NCBI GenBank assembly: GCA_017962495.1
Contig: JAGCVH010000022.1
Coordinates: 1 to 46,919, forward strand
Length of the DNA stretch: 46,919 nucleotides
Direction of reading: 5' to 3'
Source: Bacteroidaceae bacterium
GTDB taxonomy: Bacteria > Bacteroidota > Bacteroidia > Bacteroidales > Bacteroidaceae
In this document: positions 8,367 through 44,667 of the stretch, one piece after another
Numbering within the stretch: position 1 is the stretch's first letter
How the letters are laid out: the number at the start of each line of letters is the position of its first letter
Translations under genes and position numbers: made by a program
Notes under the pieces: model-generated
The model's input: the letters and a program-made list of their open reading frames with translations, nothing else
Told to the model about the DNA's origin: nothing
Databases searched by the model: none

Positions 8367-8960
8367 TTACCGGTTTTCTATCGTCTCCATCTCCTTTGTT
8401 ACCTGCTCTTCGCAGTCCCTCATGGCTTCAATGGTCCTTTGAAGCACTTCGTCAAGGGGCCATCCCAGCATTTCTGCGCCCTTTTCAATCACTTCGCGAG
8501 AGCAACCGGCAGCAAAGCCTTTCGACTTGTACTTCTTCTTGAGCGACTTCAGTTCCATGTCCTGCACGCTCTTCGACGGACGCATCAGAGCCGTTGCCCA
8601 TATCAGTCCAGTCAGTTCATCGGTAGCATAGAGCACTTTCTCCATCAGGTGTTCAGGCTTAACATCCACATTGATGCCATAACCGTGACTGCAGATAGCA
8701 TGTATCATGTCATCGCCCACGCCTCCTTCGCGCAGCAGTTCGGGTGCCTTGATGCAATGCTCATGAGGATATAGTTCAAAGTCGATGTCGTGAAGCAGTC
8801 CCACCAATCCCCAGAAATCCACTTCATCGGCAAAACCCAGTTGCTCGGCATACCAGCGCATAACACCTTCCACCGTGAGTGCATGCTGCAGGTGAAACAA
8901 GTCTTTGTTATACTTTCTCAGCAGTTCCCACGCTGCCTCTCGTGTAATGCGACTTTCCAT
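8367..8960 (-). CDS. HD-domain phosphohydrolase-like protein
   Basis: A 197-residue cytoplasmic protein. HD-domain residues are visible: His26 in LFHLQHALTVE, His57-Asp58 in LVGLLHDIDFE, and a further His-rich stretch (PHEHCIKAPELL) followed by ICSHGYG, which matches the small 'HD family hydrolase' proteins with metal-binding His/Asp. Members hydrolyse phosphate esters of nucleotides or related metabolites, and the substrate here is unknown. It is the last gene of a six-gene minus-strand operon whose internal gaps are 2-23 nt. Confidence 0.8.
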   Translation of the reverse strand: MESRITREAAWELLRKYNKDLFHLQHALTVEGVMRWYAEQLGFADEVDFWGLVGLLHDIDFELYPHEHCIKAPELLREGGVGDDMIHAICSHGYGINVDVKPEHLMEKVLYATDELTGLIWATALMRPSKSVQDMELKSLKKKYKSKGFAAGCSREVIEKGAEMLGWPLDEVLQRTIEAMRDCEEQVTKEMETIENR

Positions 8961-8983
8961 TTCTCTTCGTCTTTTGTTATTAC

Positions 8984-9280
8984 TTAGTTACTAACGCGTT
9001 CTCCCTGGGCATAGACCACATTCATGCGCTCGACGGTAATCCGTTCCCAGACATGTTCGGTGACATAGTCTTCATGGGCGAGGTATTCGTCCACATCCTC
9101 GCGGCTCTGGAACTCCATCACGAGGACTGAACCCTTCAGATTACCGGCATCATCCAGCAGACCGCCTGCACAAACGAGATGCTCCTTCAGTCGTTCCATT
9201 CCTTCCAGGTGAAGAGGTCGAACCTCCATTCGTTTGGCCAGCATTCCTTCGCCGTCGTAAGCCGTTATAACGAATTGCAT
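8984..9280 (-). CDS. YCII/EthD-like small protein
   Basis: A 98-residue ferredoxin-like alpha+beta protein of the YciI family, with the usual opening MQFVITAYDGEG, R-x-x-HL (VRPLHLEGM) with a conserved His, and the GSVLVMEFQSREDVDEYL segment. YciI proteins are dimeric, with a His/Asp pair that may catalyse a dehalogenase- or isomerase-like step, but most are uncharacterised. The gene lies 23 nt upstream of the HD gene and 21 nt after the GNAT gene within the same operon. Confidence 0.85.
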   Translation of the reverse strand: MQFVITAYDGEGMLAKRMEVRPLHLEGMERLKEHLVCAGGLLDDAGNLKGSVLVMEFQSREDVDEYLAHEDYVTEHVWERITVERMNVVYAQGERVSN

Positions 9281-12730: not shown

Positions 12731-12761
12731 AACTTATTTGACGATTGAACATTTGACATTT

Positions 12762-12949
12762 CTTGCTCCGCGTTGCTACGCAAGCGTAGGACTTTGTCCG
12801 TCCGATTACTTGCTCCGCGTTGCTACGCAAGCGTAGGACTTTGTCCGTCCGATTACTTGCTCCGCGTTGCTACGCAAGCGTAGGACTTTGTCCGTCCGAT
12901 TACTTGTTCCGCGTTGCTACGCAAGCGTAGGACTTCGTCCGTCCGATTA
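12762..12949 (+). repeat. 47-bp tandem repeat, four units
   Basis: Four head-to-tail units (12762-12808, 12809-12855, 12856-12902, 12903-12949). The first three are identical by eye; the fourth has two substitutions. Each unit contains two dyads: CTACGC-AA-GCGTAG and GGAC-TTT-GTCC (GGAC-TTC-GTCC in unit four). A degenerate fifth unit begins at 12950. The array is preceded by degenerate 7-bp units (12738-12760). Spurious open frames arise here because the unit contains no stop in several frames. Confidence 0.95.
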
Positions 12950-13043
12950 CTTGTTCCATTGCTCTACGCCGCTCAGCGATTGCAATGCTTTTACCAAGCG
13001 AAGCGACTGAAAGAACGCGTCCCTGCTTCGCAGATGCCGAGCG
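12903..13043 (+). repeat. left arm of 141-bp inverted repeat
   Basis: This arm consists of the last 47-bp unit plus ~94 bp of further hairpin-forming sequence. It is the reverse complement of 13534-13674 with about five mismatches counted by eye (roughly 96% identity), and no gap. The last ~55 bp, from TTTTACCAAGCGAAGCG to GCCGAGCG, are identical. The arms flank about 490 bp. Confidence 0.92.
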
Positions 13044-24244: not shown

Positions 24245-24282
24245 ATTTTTATTCTAATAATCTATATATCCTTTATCCATAA

Positions 24283-24501
24283 CCCCTAGGCCTTATCGCC
24301 GAAGCCCTAAGCCTTATTTCGGAAGCCCTAAGGCCTTCGGACGGAAGACCTAAGGTTCGAAGTGCTTTGAATATAGGTTCGAGGCGTCTCGAATATAGGT
24401 TCGATGTGTCTCGAATATAGGTTCGATGTGTCTCGAGCATAGGTTCGATGTGTCTCGAGCATAGGTTCGATGTGTCTCGAGCATAGGTTCGTTTTCAAGA
24501 A
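24283..24501 (-). repeat. 22-bp-period palindrome array, about ten units
   Basis: Ten units of 22 bp (one of 21 bp) fill most of the 312-bp gap between two minus-strand genes. The first (24283-24304) begins CCCCTAGGCCTTAT; units 5-10 read AATATAGGTTCGATGTGTCTCG or AGCATAGGTTCG variants. Each unit is centred on a short dyad: CCTAAGG-type in units 1-4 and TCGAA-TATAGG-TTCGA in units 5-10. Period and phase are kept across the change of sequence. Two further degenerate units may extend to 24545. The same first 17 bases (TAACCCCTAGGCCTTAT) occur at the 36.8-kb array. Confidence 0.93.
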
Positions 24502-24556
24502 GACTTTAGCCTTGTTGATGTCGAACCCAGGGAGATGCTCACTGACAAAGGAATTC

Positions 24557-32647: not shown

Positions 32648-33262
32648 ATGAGCAACATCAATCCAGAACTACAAGCCTACATCGAAGCCGAGATTCTGCC
32701 TCGTTACGACGCATTCGACAAAGCCCATCAACAAGGGCATGTGCAGATGGTAATACGCCAAAGCCTGGAATTGGCCGAGCGATTGGAGGCTGACGAAAAT
32801 ATGGCTTATACCATTGCGGCTTATCACGATACAGGTCTCTCGGAAGGACGTGAACTCCATCATAAGGTTTCGGCAAGAATCATTCGGAATGACAAATGCC
32901 TAAGACGATGGTTCACAGAGGATCAAATCGAGGTGATGGCAGATGCCGCAGAGGACCATCGTGCTTCAAACGAGAAGCCTCCACGCACCATATATGGACG
33001 TATCGTGGCAGAAGCCGACAGATTCATCGACCCGGAAGATATTATCCGACGCACCATACAATTTGGACGCGACCACTATCCCACTCTTTCGCGTGAGGAA
33101 CACTATAATCGCATGGTTCAGCACTTGCACGAGAAATATGGCAGGAACGGATATCTGCGTCTTTGGTTTCCTAATTCTCCGAACACCCAAAGGCTGGAAC
33201 AACTGCGATGCATCATAGACGAAGAATCACAACTGCGCAAGTGGTTCGACATCTGCTTCTAA
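32648..33262 (+). CDS. HD-domain hydrolase
   Basis: A 204-residue cytoplasmic protein. HD metal-binding residues are visible: His31 (QQGHVQMVIR), His60-Asp61 (IAAYHDTGLSEGRELHH), and Glu-Asp-His at AEDHRAS followed by EADRFIDPED. It belongs to the YedJ/small-HD phosphohydrolase group; the substrate may be a nucleotide. The ATG at 32648 is chosen over an upstream TTG. Last gene of the nth-pgk run. Confidence 0.83.
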   Translation: MSNINPELQAYIEAEILPRYDAFDKAHQQGHVQMVIRQSLELAERLEADENMAYTIAAYHDTGLSEGRELHHKVSARIIRNDKCLRRWFTEDQIEVMADAAEDHRASNEKPPRTIYGRIVAEADRFIDPEDIIRRTIQFGRDHYPTLSREEHYNRMVQHLHEKYGRNGYLRLWFPNSPNTQRLEQLRCIIDEESQLRKWFDICF

Positions 33263-33277
33263 ACGATACGAAAAACG

Positions 33278-33365
33278 AACATAGGTACGATGCATCTCGA
33301 ACATAGGTTCGATGCGTCTCGAATATAGGTTCGACTACAATAAGGCATAGGCTCGAGTTCAATTG
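33278..33365 (+). repeat. 22-bp-period palindrome array, four units
   Basis: Units at 33278-33299, 33300-33321, 33322-33343 and 33344-33365, the first three close to AACATAGGTTCGATGCNTCTCG. The dyad TCGAAC-ATAG-GTTCGA is perfect in unit two. It lies in the convergent gap between the HD gene and PAP2 gene and is the shortest of the four arrays. No T-run terminator was seen in this gap. Confidence 0.88.
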
Positions 33366-36777: not shown

Positions 36778-36798
36778 ATATATGTCTTTTACCTGTAA

Positions 36799-36952
36799 CC
36801 CCTAGGCCTTATTCATTAAGCCCTTAGGTCTTAACTCCGAAGCCCTTAGGCCTTATTGCACTCGAACCTATGTTCGTTTGTCATCGAACCTATATTCGTT
36901 TATCATCGAACCTATATTCGACAGACGTTGAACCTATATCCAATTACCTTTA
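36799..36952 (-). repeat. 22-bp-period palindrome array, seven units, inside the bat operon
   Basis: Seven exact 22-bp units from 36799. Units 1-3 are CCCCTAGG-type (CCCTTAGGNCTT); units 4-7 are AACCTATNTTCG-type, the reverse-complement orientation of the core at 24.4 kb. Dyads: CCTAGG (1), CGAAC-CTAT-GTTCG (4), TCGAA-CCTATA-TTCGA (6), TTG...CAA (7). The phase is constant across the change. Because batC and batD are on the same strand with only 210 bp between them, this array is probably transcribed. Confidence 0.94.
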
Positions 36953-41770: not shown

Positions 41771-42766
41771 TCATGGCACTTCCACCTTATTGATAATCTG
41801 GCTTATGATTTCCTCACTCACAATATTGTTGGCTTCTGCCTCATAGGTCAGGCCGATGCGATGGCGCATAACATCGTGAGCAACAGCACGCACGTCCTCT
41901 GGGATTACATAACCGCGACGCTTGATGAAAGCATAAGCACGTGCTGCCAAAGCCAGGTTGATGCTGGCACGAGGAGAAGCACCAAACTCGATGTAGTCTT
42001 TCAGTTCCTTCAGGTTGTACTTTTCGGGGAAGCGTGTTGCAAAGACGATATCTGTGATATATTGCTCTATCTTCTCATCGATATAAACCTGACGCACAAC
42101 CTCGCGTGCTTCACGGATGTCTTCCGTACGCAGGATGGGCTTCACGGCCTCGCGATCGCCACCGATGTTCATACGGATAATCTTCTTTTCCTCTTCCAGC
42201 TTCGGATAGTCGATTACGACCTTCAGCATGAAGCGGTCTACCTGCGCCTCGGGCAAGGGATATGTTCCCTCCTGTTCGATTGGGTTCTGGGTAGCAAGCA
42301 CGAGGAAGGGGTCGGGCAACTGATAGGTTTGCTTACCGATGGTAACTTGGCGTTCCTGCATGGCCTCGAGCAATGCCGACTGCACCTTTGCCGGCGCACG
42401 GTTGATTTCATCCGCCAATACAAAGTTGGCGAACACAGGACCTTGCTCTACAACAAACTTTTCGTCCTTCTGGGAATAAATCATGGTTCCCACCACGTCG
42501 GCAGGAAGCAAGTCGGGAGTAAACTGGATGCGGCTAAACTTAGCGTCCACCAGTCCTGCCAAGGTCTTAATGGCTTGCGTCTTAGCAAGACCGGGTACAC
42601 CTTCGAGCAACACATGGCCATCGCTCAACAAACCGATAAGCAGGCTTTCCACCAAATGTTTCTGCCCTACTATCACTTGCGCCATACCAGTCTGCAAGTT
42701 GGTCACGAAGGCACTCTTTTGTTCAATCCGCTCGTTCAGTTCGCGGATGTCGATAGATTCATTCAT
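41771..42766 (-). CDS. MoxR-family AAA+ ATPase
   Basis: A 331-residue cytoplasmic ATPase. Walker A is EGVPGLAKTQ (Lys62-Thr63), Walker B is VLADEINRAPAKVQSALLEAMQER, sensor 1 is FLVLATQNPIEQEGTYPLPEAQ with DRF following. The C-terminal AAA lid contains SPRASINLALAARAYAF. MoxR proteins are chaperone-like partners of vWA proteins, so its likely clients are the DUF58 and Bat proteins encoded downstream. First gene of the operon; promoter at 42800-42830. Confidence 0.95.
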   Translation of the reverse strand: MNESIDIRELNERIEQKSAFVTNLQTGMAQVIVGQKHLVESLLIGLLSDGHVLLEGVPGLAKTQAIKTLAGLVDAKFSRIQFTPDLLPADVVGTMIYSQKDEKFVVEQGPVFANFVLADEINRAPAKVQSALLEAMQERQVTIGKQTYQLPDPFLVLATQNPIEQEGTYPLPEAQVDRFMLKVVIDYPKLEEEKKIIRMNIGGDREAVKPILRTEDIREAREVVRQVYIDEKIEQYITDIVFATRFPEKYNLKELKDYIEFGASPRASINLALAARAYAFIKRRGYVIPEDVRAVAHDVMRHRIGLTYEAEANNIVSEEIISQIINKVEVP

Positions 42767-42830: not shown

Positions 42831-42915
42831 TTTTAAAGTTTTAAAAAAAGTTATAAAATGGGTAGATGATGCATAATCGAAAAGTGATAGGAAAGAAATC
42901 AACCGATTTTAGGGC

Positions 42916-43223
42916 AAAACAAGTGCTTGCGAGCATATAATAGCATGCAAGCCATCGAGATTGCTCAAGCAAGGCTTCAAGGTTGTACAACCTCAGTACG
43001 ATGCTTGGGCAAGCGCGACACCATGCTTGTACAACCCTGAGCACATGCAATATACAATCGCCAGCCGAAAGACTTAAGTCTTATCACGGAAGGCCTTAGG
43101 TTCGATGTACGTTGAACCTAGGCTCGATGCTCATTGAACAAGCGTTCGATGGCAATCGAATATAGGTTCGATGTTAGATGAACAAAGGTTCGATGCAAGA
43201 CGAACATATGATCGAGCGTAAAC
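42916..43223. repeat. 22-bp-period palindrome array, fourteen units
   Basis: Fourteen exact 22-bp units fill most of the 524-bp gap between GH125 and moxR. The sequence at each dyad differs: GTTG-TA-CAAC (unit 4), CTTG-GG-CAAG (5), TTG-TA-CAA (6), GACTT-AAGTC (8), GAACCTAGGCTC (10), GAAC-AAGC-GTTC (11), CGAA-TATAGG-TTCG (12), GAAC-AAAG-GTTC (13), CGA-ACATATGA-TCG (14). Units 9-14 belong to the AGGTTCGATG type seen elsewhere, while 1-6 have TTG/CAA arms. The array ends exactly where the GH125 terminator's T-run starts (43224). Confidence 0.92.
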
Positions 43224-43257
43224 AAAAAAAGCACCCACAACATTCAGTTGCAGGTGC
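43224..43257 (-). terminator. intrinsic terminator of the GH92-GH125 operon
   Basis: On the minus strand an 11-bp stem with two wobbles and a TGAAT loop (43231-43257) is followed by seven T (43224-43230), 33 nt after the GH125 stop codon. Confidence 0.88.
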
Positions 43258-43290
43258 CAGTCTTCATACTCGCTATTTCAAGAAGAGGAG

Positions 43291-44667
43291 TTACTCGAAT
43301 ATGTGCAGAACAAGTTCGCCAAAGAGACCATTTGCCCAAGCAAACCAAGAGCGAGTGAACTTCGCGGGATTGTCCTTGTCAAAGGATTCGTGCATCAGTC
43401 CTTTACCGCCATCGGTGCGAAGCAATTGCACGAGGCAAGCCTTCTGTTCGTCTCGGTCAGTAGTCGTAAGACCTTTCATGATGATGGACATAGGCCAGAT
43501 TTGGTCGAGACCCGTGTGCTGACTGCCAATGCCTTGAGCGGCTTTGCCCACAAAGAAATAAGGGTTCCACTCGCTCCAAACCATTCGACGGGTGTTCTGA
43601 TAGATGGGGTCGTCAGCAGAAACATCGGTTAGATAAGGCAAGGAGAGCAAGGAGGGCGCATTGGCATCGTCCTGCAAGATGCAACCACCAAAGCCATCGA
43701 CCTCGAAGGCATAGATGCGACCGAACTGAGGATGATTTACAATGGCATGCTCTTGTAGGGCAATGGACACCTCCTCGGCCAAATCACGACATTCCTGAGC
43801 AAGGGATTTCTCGTGATTAACATCTTCGAGGATGACAGCAGCCTTACGCAAGACAGAGACAGCAAAGAAGTTGCTGGGGATGAGGAAAGGCATGATGCAA
43901 GCATCGTCGGAGGGACGGAAGAAAGAAGCTATAAGTCCGCACGGACGAACGGGATGTCCATAGCCACCGTTTGCTACAGTATCATGCATGGCTGCGGTCT
44001 TTCGCTGGAAGGTGTAACTGGTCTTGTTGCCTCCCTTGCGCTGTTGCTCGCGGAACACCTTAAGCGTCTGGCGGATTGCTTCCAACCAAGTGTCGTCGAA
44101 GATAGAGGAATCACCGGTGAGCAACCAATACTCAAAGGCAAGGCGAAGAGGATAGCAAAGGCTATCGATTTCATACTTTCGTTCATGCAGAATAGGTTGC
44201 ATCTTGGTTATATCCGACTCCCATTGACTCCCTGTTGCAGCAAAGTTAAAAGCATTAGCATAGGGGTCGATGGTCATATAGCGGAACTGACGACGAAGAA
44301 GTCCGCGAATCATGTGACGCAGGTGAGCATCATCCTTCAGGAAACGCATATAGGGCCATACCTGAGCTCCAGAGTCGCGAAGCCACATGGCCTCAATGTC
44401 ACCAGTAATGACAAAGGTATCGTCGTCACCATTTTCGTCTTTCAGATAGCGGACAGTAGTGTCGAGCGTGTTGGGATAGCAGGCTTGGAACATCTGCCAA
44501 AGGCGTTCGTCGTAAGCACGAAGGCGACTTTCCATCTTGGCAATAAGGGCATCAACCGACTCACTACGGAAACTGCGCTTCTCTGGTTCGGGACGCTGTG
44601 CAAAGCAATTGACAGTTGGCAATTGGCAACTTGCAATTAAGGATAGGATTAAAAGTATTCTCTTCAT
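43291..44667 (-). CDS. GH125 exo-alpha-1,6-mannosidase
   Basis: A 458-residue secreted or lipid-anchored protein. The N-terminus has a lipobox-like IASC (Cys14), or a cleavage near FAQ at residue 24. The GH125 (alpha/alpha)6 barrel is clear: FVITGDIEAMWLRDSGAQVWPY, FNFAATGSQWESDITKMQP, YEIDSLCYPL with the likely acid Asp168, and GLMHESFDKDNP with the likely base Glu427. It releases terminal alpha-1,6-mannose, working with GH92 (31 nt upstream) on mannan or N-glycans. The signal-peptide codons overlap a 7-bp repeat (44602-44636). Confidence 0.92.
   Translation of the reverse strand: MKRILLILSLIASCQLPTVNCFAQRPEPEKRSFRSESVDALIAKMESRLRAYDERLWQMFQACYPNTLDTTVRYLKDENGDDDTFVITGDIEAMWLRDSGAQVWPYMRFLKDDAHLRHMIRGLLRRQFRYMTIDPYANAFNFAATGSQWESDITKMQPILHERKYEIDSLCYPLRLAFEYWLLTGDSSIFDDTWLEAIRQTLKVFREQQRKGGNKTSYTFQRKTAAMHDTVANGGYGHPVRPCGLIASFFRPSDDACIMPFLIPSNFFAVSVLRKAAVILEDVNHEKSLAQECRDLAEEVSIALQEHAIVNHPQFGRIYAFEVDGFGGCILQDDANAPSLLSLPYLTDVSADDPIYQNTRRMVWSEWNPYFFVGKAAQGIGSQHTGLDQIWPMSIIMKGLTTTDRDEQKACLVQLLRTDGGKGLMHESFDKDNPAKFTRSWFAWANGLFGELVLHIFE
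44602..44636 (-). repeat. degenerate heptamer repeat in GH125 signal-peptide codons
   Basis: Five 7-bp units on the + strand (AAAGCAA, TTGACAG, TTGGCAA, TTGGCAA, CTTGCAA), two of them identical neighbours. They code for part of the signal peptide (ASCQLPTVNC). Seven is not a multiple of three. Confidence 0.6.

Follow-up and report, generated by a model that had tools for sequence, protein, structure and literature searches.

Intergenic arrays of near-palindromic dyads at a period near 22 bp, with lineage-specific dyad sequence, in a Bacteroidaceae genome and its relatives

The window, by which we mean the whole stretch of 46,919 nucleotides of Bacteroidaceae DNA analysed here, contains between the genes of a GH125 alpha-mannosidase and a MoxR-like AAA ATPase a run of short inverted repeats. 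From the letters alone, it had been read as fourteen units of exactly 22 bp, each centred on a dyad whose sequence changes from unit to unit. What is kept in such an array, the sequence of the dyads, their bare self-complementarity or their spacing, and what could the array be for?

The array behind the GH125 gene and its sisters

The features of the locus are the following.

42916..43223, no strand: 22-bp dyad array, a mosaic of types (lag-22 identity 0.53; arm pairing versus shuffle)
42916..43069, no strand: left block with CTTG/CAAG and GTTGTACAAC-type dyads in steps of ~20-22 bp (direct sequence reading)
43070..43081, no strand: AGACTTAAGTCT dyad, a perfect palindrome (sequence; two more copies, both inside one array of L191)
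43092..43223, no strand: right block, one unit of a B and an A half, then A-type and F-type (GAACAAGCGTTC) units (sequence; arm-pairing analysis; 97% block match)
43230..43258 (43258-43230), minus strand: terminator-like hairpin behind the GH125 gene, its T-run touching the right end of the array (consensus scan)
41771..42766, minus strand: MoxR-like AAA ATPase, the next gene downstream of the array (AAA_3, 8.6e-67)
43291..44667, minus strand: GH125 alpha-mannosidase, the gene upstream of the array (Glyco_hydro_125, 3.9e-167)

The autocorrelation by which the original prediction was to be checked has its peak at lag 22, and the periodicity spans 42916..43223, with an identity of 0.53 at lag 22 and of 0.44 at lag 44, the remaining lags within 15-49 giving 0.14-0.33. 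Dyads are present and vary along the array: 51 of 112 arm cells are paired versus 30% with the right arms shuffled among the units (none of 2000 shuffles reached 51). That every unit measures exactly 22 bp turned out to be wrong. The array is in good phase over two blocks (42981-43049 and 43073-43235), the dyads at its left end follow each other, on direct reading of the sequence, in steps of ~20-22 bp, the left end being shifted by 1-2 bases, and the unit near 43053 has no clear dyad on direct reading or in the arm-pairing analysis. The unit near 43097 is a hybrid with halves from two dyad types (B and A); such two-type hybrids stand where dyad types meet. The array is a mosaic of dyad types and not a row of fourteen equal units. 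A 62-bp block of it (43112-43173) matches another locus of the same genome, G000:C103:10802-10863, at 97% identity. At 10.5 bp per helical turn a 22-bp step advances by ~34 degrees per unit, and the predicted position of the dyads on one face of the helix is therefore only approximate.

The genome of the window (G000; 2.95 Mb, assembly 85% complete) was sampled over 447 kb, partly chosen around known matches, with genes taken from open reading frames predicted by an in-house script. The window contains four arrays in all and the sampled pieces of G000 contain 43. The three sisters in the window are:

24267..24510, no strand: sister array, a B-type part (21/22 bp) followed by an A-type part (periodicity and repeat scans)
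33260..33356, no strand: sister array between convergent genes (periodicity scan and gene layout)
36792..36951, no strand: sister array in the gap between a TPR (BatC-like) gene and BatD (periodicity scan and domain matches)

In the 447 kb, 25 of the 108 intergenic gaps of at least 100 bp carry an array, among them 7 of the 21 gaps between convergent genes, 15 of the 61 between co-directional genes and 3 of the 26 between divergent genes. Nineteen of the 21 co-directional arrays of G000 are closer to the upstream stop than to the downstream start, some overlapping the stop, and another scan of G000 and the genomes G008 and G076 gave 22 of 27 arrays nearer the upstream stop. The preference is not taken as general because, of the 15 co-directional arrays at the genus and order loci, just 8 lie closer to the stop; the samples are non-random, many stretches surrounding MoxR or earlier matches. 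The array behind the GH125 gene does end at the T-run of the terminator-like hairpin of the consensus scan, but the suggestion that such DNA is mostly untranscribed does not carry over to other arrays, neither to those near or over the upstream stop nor to those inside the gap of the bat operon.

Kinship with Prevotella is not shown by MoxR, whose top five named matches are Bacteroidaceae/Prevotellaceae MAGs (87-93% identity), Prevotella-labelled matches having ~74-81%. The nearest relative by MoxR is G017 (94%). With a similar filter, the 447 kb of G000 gave 28 lag-22 arrays and 451 kb of G017 gave 5. Three of the 43 arrays of G000 could be placed on stretches of G017, where the corresponding gaps are array-free.

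Period, half-sites and spacers in the genome and its relatives

G000 and the sampled relatives have intergenic arrays with a period fixed near 22 bp, near-palindromic dyads, freer spacers and a dyad sequence that is specific to the lineage. The search for arrays covered lags 15-40 in the non-coding DNA of 447 kb of the own genome, 746 kb of the genus and 1.70 Mb of the order (the order set may include members of the genus), after removal of L091 and L107 (duplicates of L174 and L187), of repeats with short-period or N content, of those with more than half of their length inside predicted ORFs and, for lags of 25 or less, of those with fewer than 2.9 units. Lag 22 accounts for 28 of 32 own, 28 of 35 genus and 6 of 21 order arrays, lag 23 for 0, 2 and 6, respectively. 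Versus column permutation, dyads were found at p<=0.05 in 24 of the 28 own lag-22 arrays, which are not independent because they share families, in 14 of the 28 of the genus, half of which thus fail the test, and in 3 of the 6 of the order. The dyad test was passed by 50 of the 75 arrays at lags 21-23 and by none of the 13 outside these lags.

The dyad is a real repeated feature, recurring in related species with the same period and other sequences. Pairs of ACACGT cores spaced exactly 22 number 267 in G008 and 192 in G076, versus 0 and 1 for the reversed pattern, and 13 of 121 genomes have at least 49 sites of this family within one mismatch, the other 108 having at most 16. Species-specific examples are AAGACGGGCGTCTT (L175), AGGATTACTAATCCT (L172, 23 bp), CAGCGGGCGCTG (L115) and CTCAAAGTTTTTGAG (L109, 23 bp). 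G005 has three arrays within 20 kb with differing dyads (dyad p 0.010, 0.079 and 0.089), which one strict protein would not explain. Also within 20 kb, L109, from a Prevotellaceae MAG, has three 23-bp arrays with three different units (1550-1780, 8867-9015 and 9002-9148). Degenerate 22-bp repeats around TCCGAACCG were seen beside an N stretch in L112 (3050-3338; Tannerella sp. MAG), with a dyad p of 0.44 for the part tested.

Inside the units the dyad is better kept than the spacer. For own arrays with p up to 0.05 and others with p up to 0.1, the match to the next unit is 0.74 within 7 bp of the dyad centre versus 0.49 beyond 8.5 bp in the own genome (22 of 24 arrays), 0.73 near the centre versus 0.58 away from it in the lag-22 arrays of the genus (16 of 20), and the centre is kept better in 24 of 31 genus and order arrays at lags 21-23. 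In chains of A-type units, some of which are chance matches, neighbours are identical to 0.83 in the arms, 0.70 in the core and 0.44 in the spacer (118 neighbouring pairs). Of their 146 spacers, 117 are distinct; the spacers measure ~4-6 nt. Half-sites are conserved over spacers, as in an array of protein-binding sites. Taking the spacer as centre of the true dyad was rejected, the core-centred reading being better in the own arrays (z 4.4 versus 2.0).

Whether self-complementarity rather than a fixed sequence is kept, as the original prediction had it, received a divided answer. With right arms shuffled within arrays of dyad p up to 0.1, pairing of the arms was favoured in the own arrays (593 of 904 cells paired; 0 of 2000 shuffles) and only weakly so in the genus (113 of 2000) and the order (97 of 2000). 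In the A family the TCGA pair is CG in 178, CA in 57, TG in 56 and TA in 6 cases, and the paired cells (1705) are fewer than the shuffle mean (1812), mainly via an asymmetric core (a unit may count on both strands in both figures). The changes in this family being mostly one-sided, it is the sequence that is kept there, not bare self-complementarity. The asymmetry of the A core is seen in the chains as CTAT 68 and ATAG 43 versus CTAG 12 and ATAT 2. The 52 ACACGT units of G008 do not covary (z 0.4), and the 47 of G076 do to some extent (z 3.8 genome-wide, 1 of 3000 shuffles; 2.0 within arrays, 119 of 3000). Among the 150 ACACGT matches listed, one inner arm pair shows covariation inside genomes (86 of 150 versus 69.2, 1 of 5000; 55 of 107 distinct strings, z 2.5); the next arm pair does not (87 of 150 versus 84.3).

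Pairing kept through change was seen at the BatC-BatD gap, which was measured in 26 of the 32 genomes of the genus. It is at most 64 bp or an overlap in 17 and long but array-free in 3. In the other 6 it is occupied by a 22-bp array, the carriers besides G000 being G005, G008, G012, G024, G036 and, in degenerate form, G028. Five of these arrays are of the ACACGT type and measure 116, 138, 138, 138 and 137 bp; the array of G000 is of the A/B type, and in G017 the same gap is 10 bp long, in G001 13 bp. The ACACGT arrays persist in this gap over five species, in which 19 compensatory species pairs (both sides changed, pairing kept) were counted versus 8.2 expected (2 of 3000 shuffles) and 135 of 216 cells are Watson-Crick versus 128.2 (47 of 3000). 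Another 112 species pairs are one-sided, and 35 are two-sided with pairing absent in one or both; the species pairs are not independent because G012 and G024 are close (BatD 0.91).

In a comparison of G012 with G024 over alignments of more than 1000 columns, identity is 0.938 for the aligned arrays (400 bases, gapless), 0.940 for the remaining aligned intergenic DNA and 0.844 for third codon positions. The arrays are no more constrained than the neighbouring aligned intergenic DNA. Three of the four arrays detected in G024 have an aligned counterpart in the sampled DNA of G012 and one has none.

The A-type core GAAYATAGGTTCGA has 306 sites within two mismatches in G000 versus 28 for the reversed pattern; within one mismatch the count is 152 in G000, and none of 60 other genomes has more than 7. 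Of 61 genomes searched, 58 lack the B-type AAGGCCTAAGGCYTTNNG (within one mismatch), which has 27 sites in G000, 8 in G017 and 1 in G026. Since G017 is the nearest relative by MoxR and has the B-type, the A-type seems from these counts to be the younger of the two in G000. In the sampled non-coding DNA of G000 outside the window we found 73 A-type, 12 B-type and 4 F-type (GAACGCTTGTTC) sites, and two sites each of GGTTGTACAACC, GCTTGTACAACC and AGACTTAAGTCT, both AGACTTAAGTCT sites lying in one L191 array. Plain CTTG-NN-CAAG has only one other non-coding place in this DNA and is for this reason not counted as a recurring type. Most of the differing dyads of the array behind the GH125 gene are types used elsewhere in G000.

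Genome-wide, TTGA or TCAA frequently replaces the TCGA half-site of the A-type (a C-to-T change on either strand), seldom both in one unit; these variants may be due to deamination at TCGA.

Known repeat systems

The ~22-bp repeats of plasmid origins (iterons) are spaced by about two helical turns and are bound by an oligomeric protein. They sit at origins, are not dispersed in intergenic DNA and as a rule are not dyads; the present arrays share the ~22-bp spacing and differ in being spread intergenically and dyadic. For the ACACGT clade a parS-like nature was also considered. A link to mobile replicons was rejected: plasmids and phages gave no match to 42880-43240 of the window, and viral contigs none to paired A cores at a spacing of 22, in collections from which records near this genome may be absent. 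Spacers of guide length, as in a CRISPR array, were not found, the spacers of the arrays having ~4-6 nt.

Closest in clade and unit length is BrickBuilt, described in PMC4596501 as a minisatellite/MITE of Porphyromonas gingivalis with a 23-nt unit and 19 loci in one strain, whose leader and tail segments have 12-nt terminal inverted repeats; the same paper mentions 22-nt repeats reported earlier from strain W83, with no locations given there. The likeness extends to Bacteroidales, intergenic position, tandem arrangement at a near-equal unit length, several loci per genome and imperfect units, and also to the unit-sized copy changes between strains and the possible dyad stem-loops (PMC4596501). 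The present arrays are likewise intergenic and tandem, with a period of 22 in G000 and of 23 in some relatives; they differ from BrickBuilt in that no shared ends were seen, in having more loci and in combining several dyad types in one array. In the 85 flanks of 43 own arrays no common end was found, the most enriched 8-mers being B-type dyads or ACGCTTGC (4 flanks), and a MITE of the BrickBuilt type with terminal inverted repeats, leader and tail was rejected on this ground.

REP/BIME elements are, according to PMC3733652, short high-copy palindromes that are species-specific, lie mostly downstream of genes and occur in clusters; they carry a GTAG or CGTC tag, the GTAG REPs often together with a RAYT. 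The present arrays resemble this description in being short high-copy palindromes, in a position mostly behind genes, in species specificity and in clustering, and differ from it in units that follow head to tail at 22 bp, in that no tag was seen and in that G000 has no match to a Y1 transposase. In the 6-base stretches adjoining 66 oriented A units (A family only) GTAG and CGTC occur once each, and the reverse complements CTAC and GACG 0 and 13 times. The RAYT transposase (PF01797) has 0 matches in G000, whose assembly is 85% complete, which led us to reject a RAYT-driven REP. Searches of open-licence papers brought up no report that describes 22-bp dyad arrays from these bacteria; the papers on BrickBuilt and REP come nearest.

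Possible roles of the arrays

We tentatively favour, at somewhat less than an even chance, that the arrays are dispersed, helically spaced sites for a putative lineage-specific protein or enzyme that binds dyads. Each dyad would be the recognition site of a putative two-fold symmetric DNA-binding protein or enzyme, and neighbouring sites ~two turns apart would let copies of the protein bind side by side, which would explain why period and half-sites are kept while the spacers drift. The site sequence would turn over with the specificity of the protein, leaving older B-type beside dominant A-type dyads in the same arrays. The original prediction had proposed binding of an oligomeric protein; the sites at ~two turns fit the data, and the binding itself is what we infer. 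The most likely role would be local DNA packaging or a boundary near gene 3' ends, comparable in kind to BIME/REP arrays. A packaging or boundary function for the host is preferred only slightly over selfish dispersal, because the constraint equals that of neighbouring intergenic DNA and because the number of arrays differs so much between G000 and G017.

Selfish dispersal, which we regard as rather unlikely, would have a transposase or other enzyme recognise the dyad and copy blocks of units into intergenic DNA in the manner of REPs, with no function for the host. It would account for the A-type being abundant in G000 only (306 sites versus 28 for the reversed pattern, and 152 versus no more than 7 in any of 60 others), for the array-free gaps of G017 opposite the three mappable G000 arrays (of 43) and for the 62-bp block with 97% identity at another locus, but fits poorly with the absence of a PF01797 match in G000 (85% complete), of a common end in the 85 array flanks and with the persistence of the BatC-BatD arrays in five species.

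Dyad binding could extend to a genus-wide system, an extension that we consider unlikely: a putative oligomeric DNA-binding protein would decorate a large share of the intergenic regions, its specificity and the dyad would co-evolve fast, and each lineage would have its own site, by analogy with the satellite DNA of eukaryotes and the proteins that bind it.

Sequence is what usually defines dispersed palindromic repeats; in the present arrays it is replaced from species to species, and what recurs is the spacing and the two-fold symmetry. Whether the DNA-contacting residues of a putative binding protein differ between species with different dyads is directly testable. If a protein were found, an uncultured gut/rumen lineage would gain a chromosome-wide DNA-binding factor; if an enzyme, it would be a mobiliser of repeats without RAYT.

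We think it quite improbable that the arrays are neutral minisatellites in which slippage yields 22-bp copies, intramolecular template switching keeps the palindromes and nothing is selected. Some neighbouring units do share identical spacers, and eight arrays have their outermost A unit inverted with the phase kept, an outcome that template switching at a hairpin could produce. This reading leaves unexplained why unrelated sequences have one period, why the dyads are conserved over the spacers and why the aligned arrays of G012 and G024 have low divergence and no gaps. The flipped units stand at array ends in L002, L021, L027, L031, L045, L048, L050 and L208; in L002 the unit preceding the flipped end is ambiguous.

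For a role as RNA elements, in which hairpins at the 3' end of a transcript would protect, process or terminate the message, the proximity to the stop (19 of 21 own co-directional arrays; 22 of 27 in G000, G008 and G076) and the poverty of divergent gaps in arrays (3 of 26, versus 7 of 21 and 15 of 61 for convergent and co-directional gaps) could be cited, as could a mild excess of G.T over A.C mismatches (112 versus 86, about p 0.07) in co-directional arrays read in sense orientation. Against this, only 8 of 15 co-directional arrays at other genus and order loci lie closer to the stop, the sense strand folds lower in just 17 of 33 arrays (mismatches and folds were taken from arrays with a dyad score of at least 0.55), the core orientation is inconsistent (sense/antisense 4/11 in own arrays, 4/3 in G008, 2/2 in G076), and the array behind the GH125 gene follows a terminator-like hairpin. 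Selection at the RNA level was set aside since mismatches and folds gave no clear signal, and a known structured RNA was rejected since the window has no Rfam match at gathering score. We hold the reading as RNA hairpins to be very improbable; the evidence leans towards a DNA-level rather than an RNA feature.

A further repeat was observed in the window at 12758-12957, where a 47-bp unit with CTACGCAAGCGTAG and GGAC-TTT-GTCC dyads is present in 4.3 tandem copies. Its 12-mer TACGCAAGCGTA has 7 copies in the non-coding 447-kb sample, the window counted, and pieces resembling the 47-bp repeat adjoin some 22-bp arrays (L002, L013 and L057).
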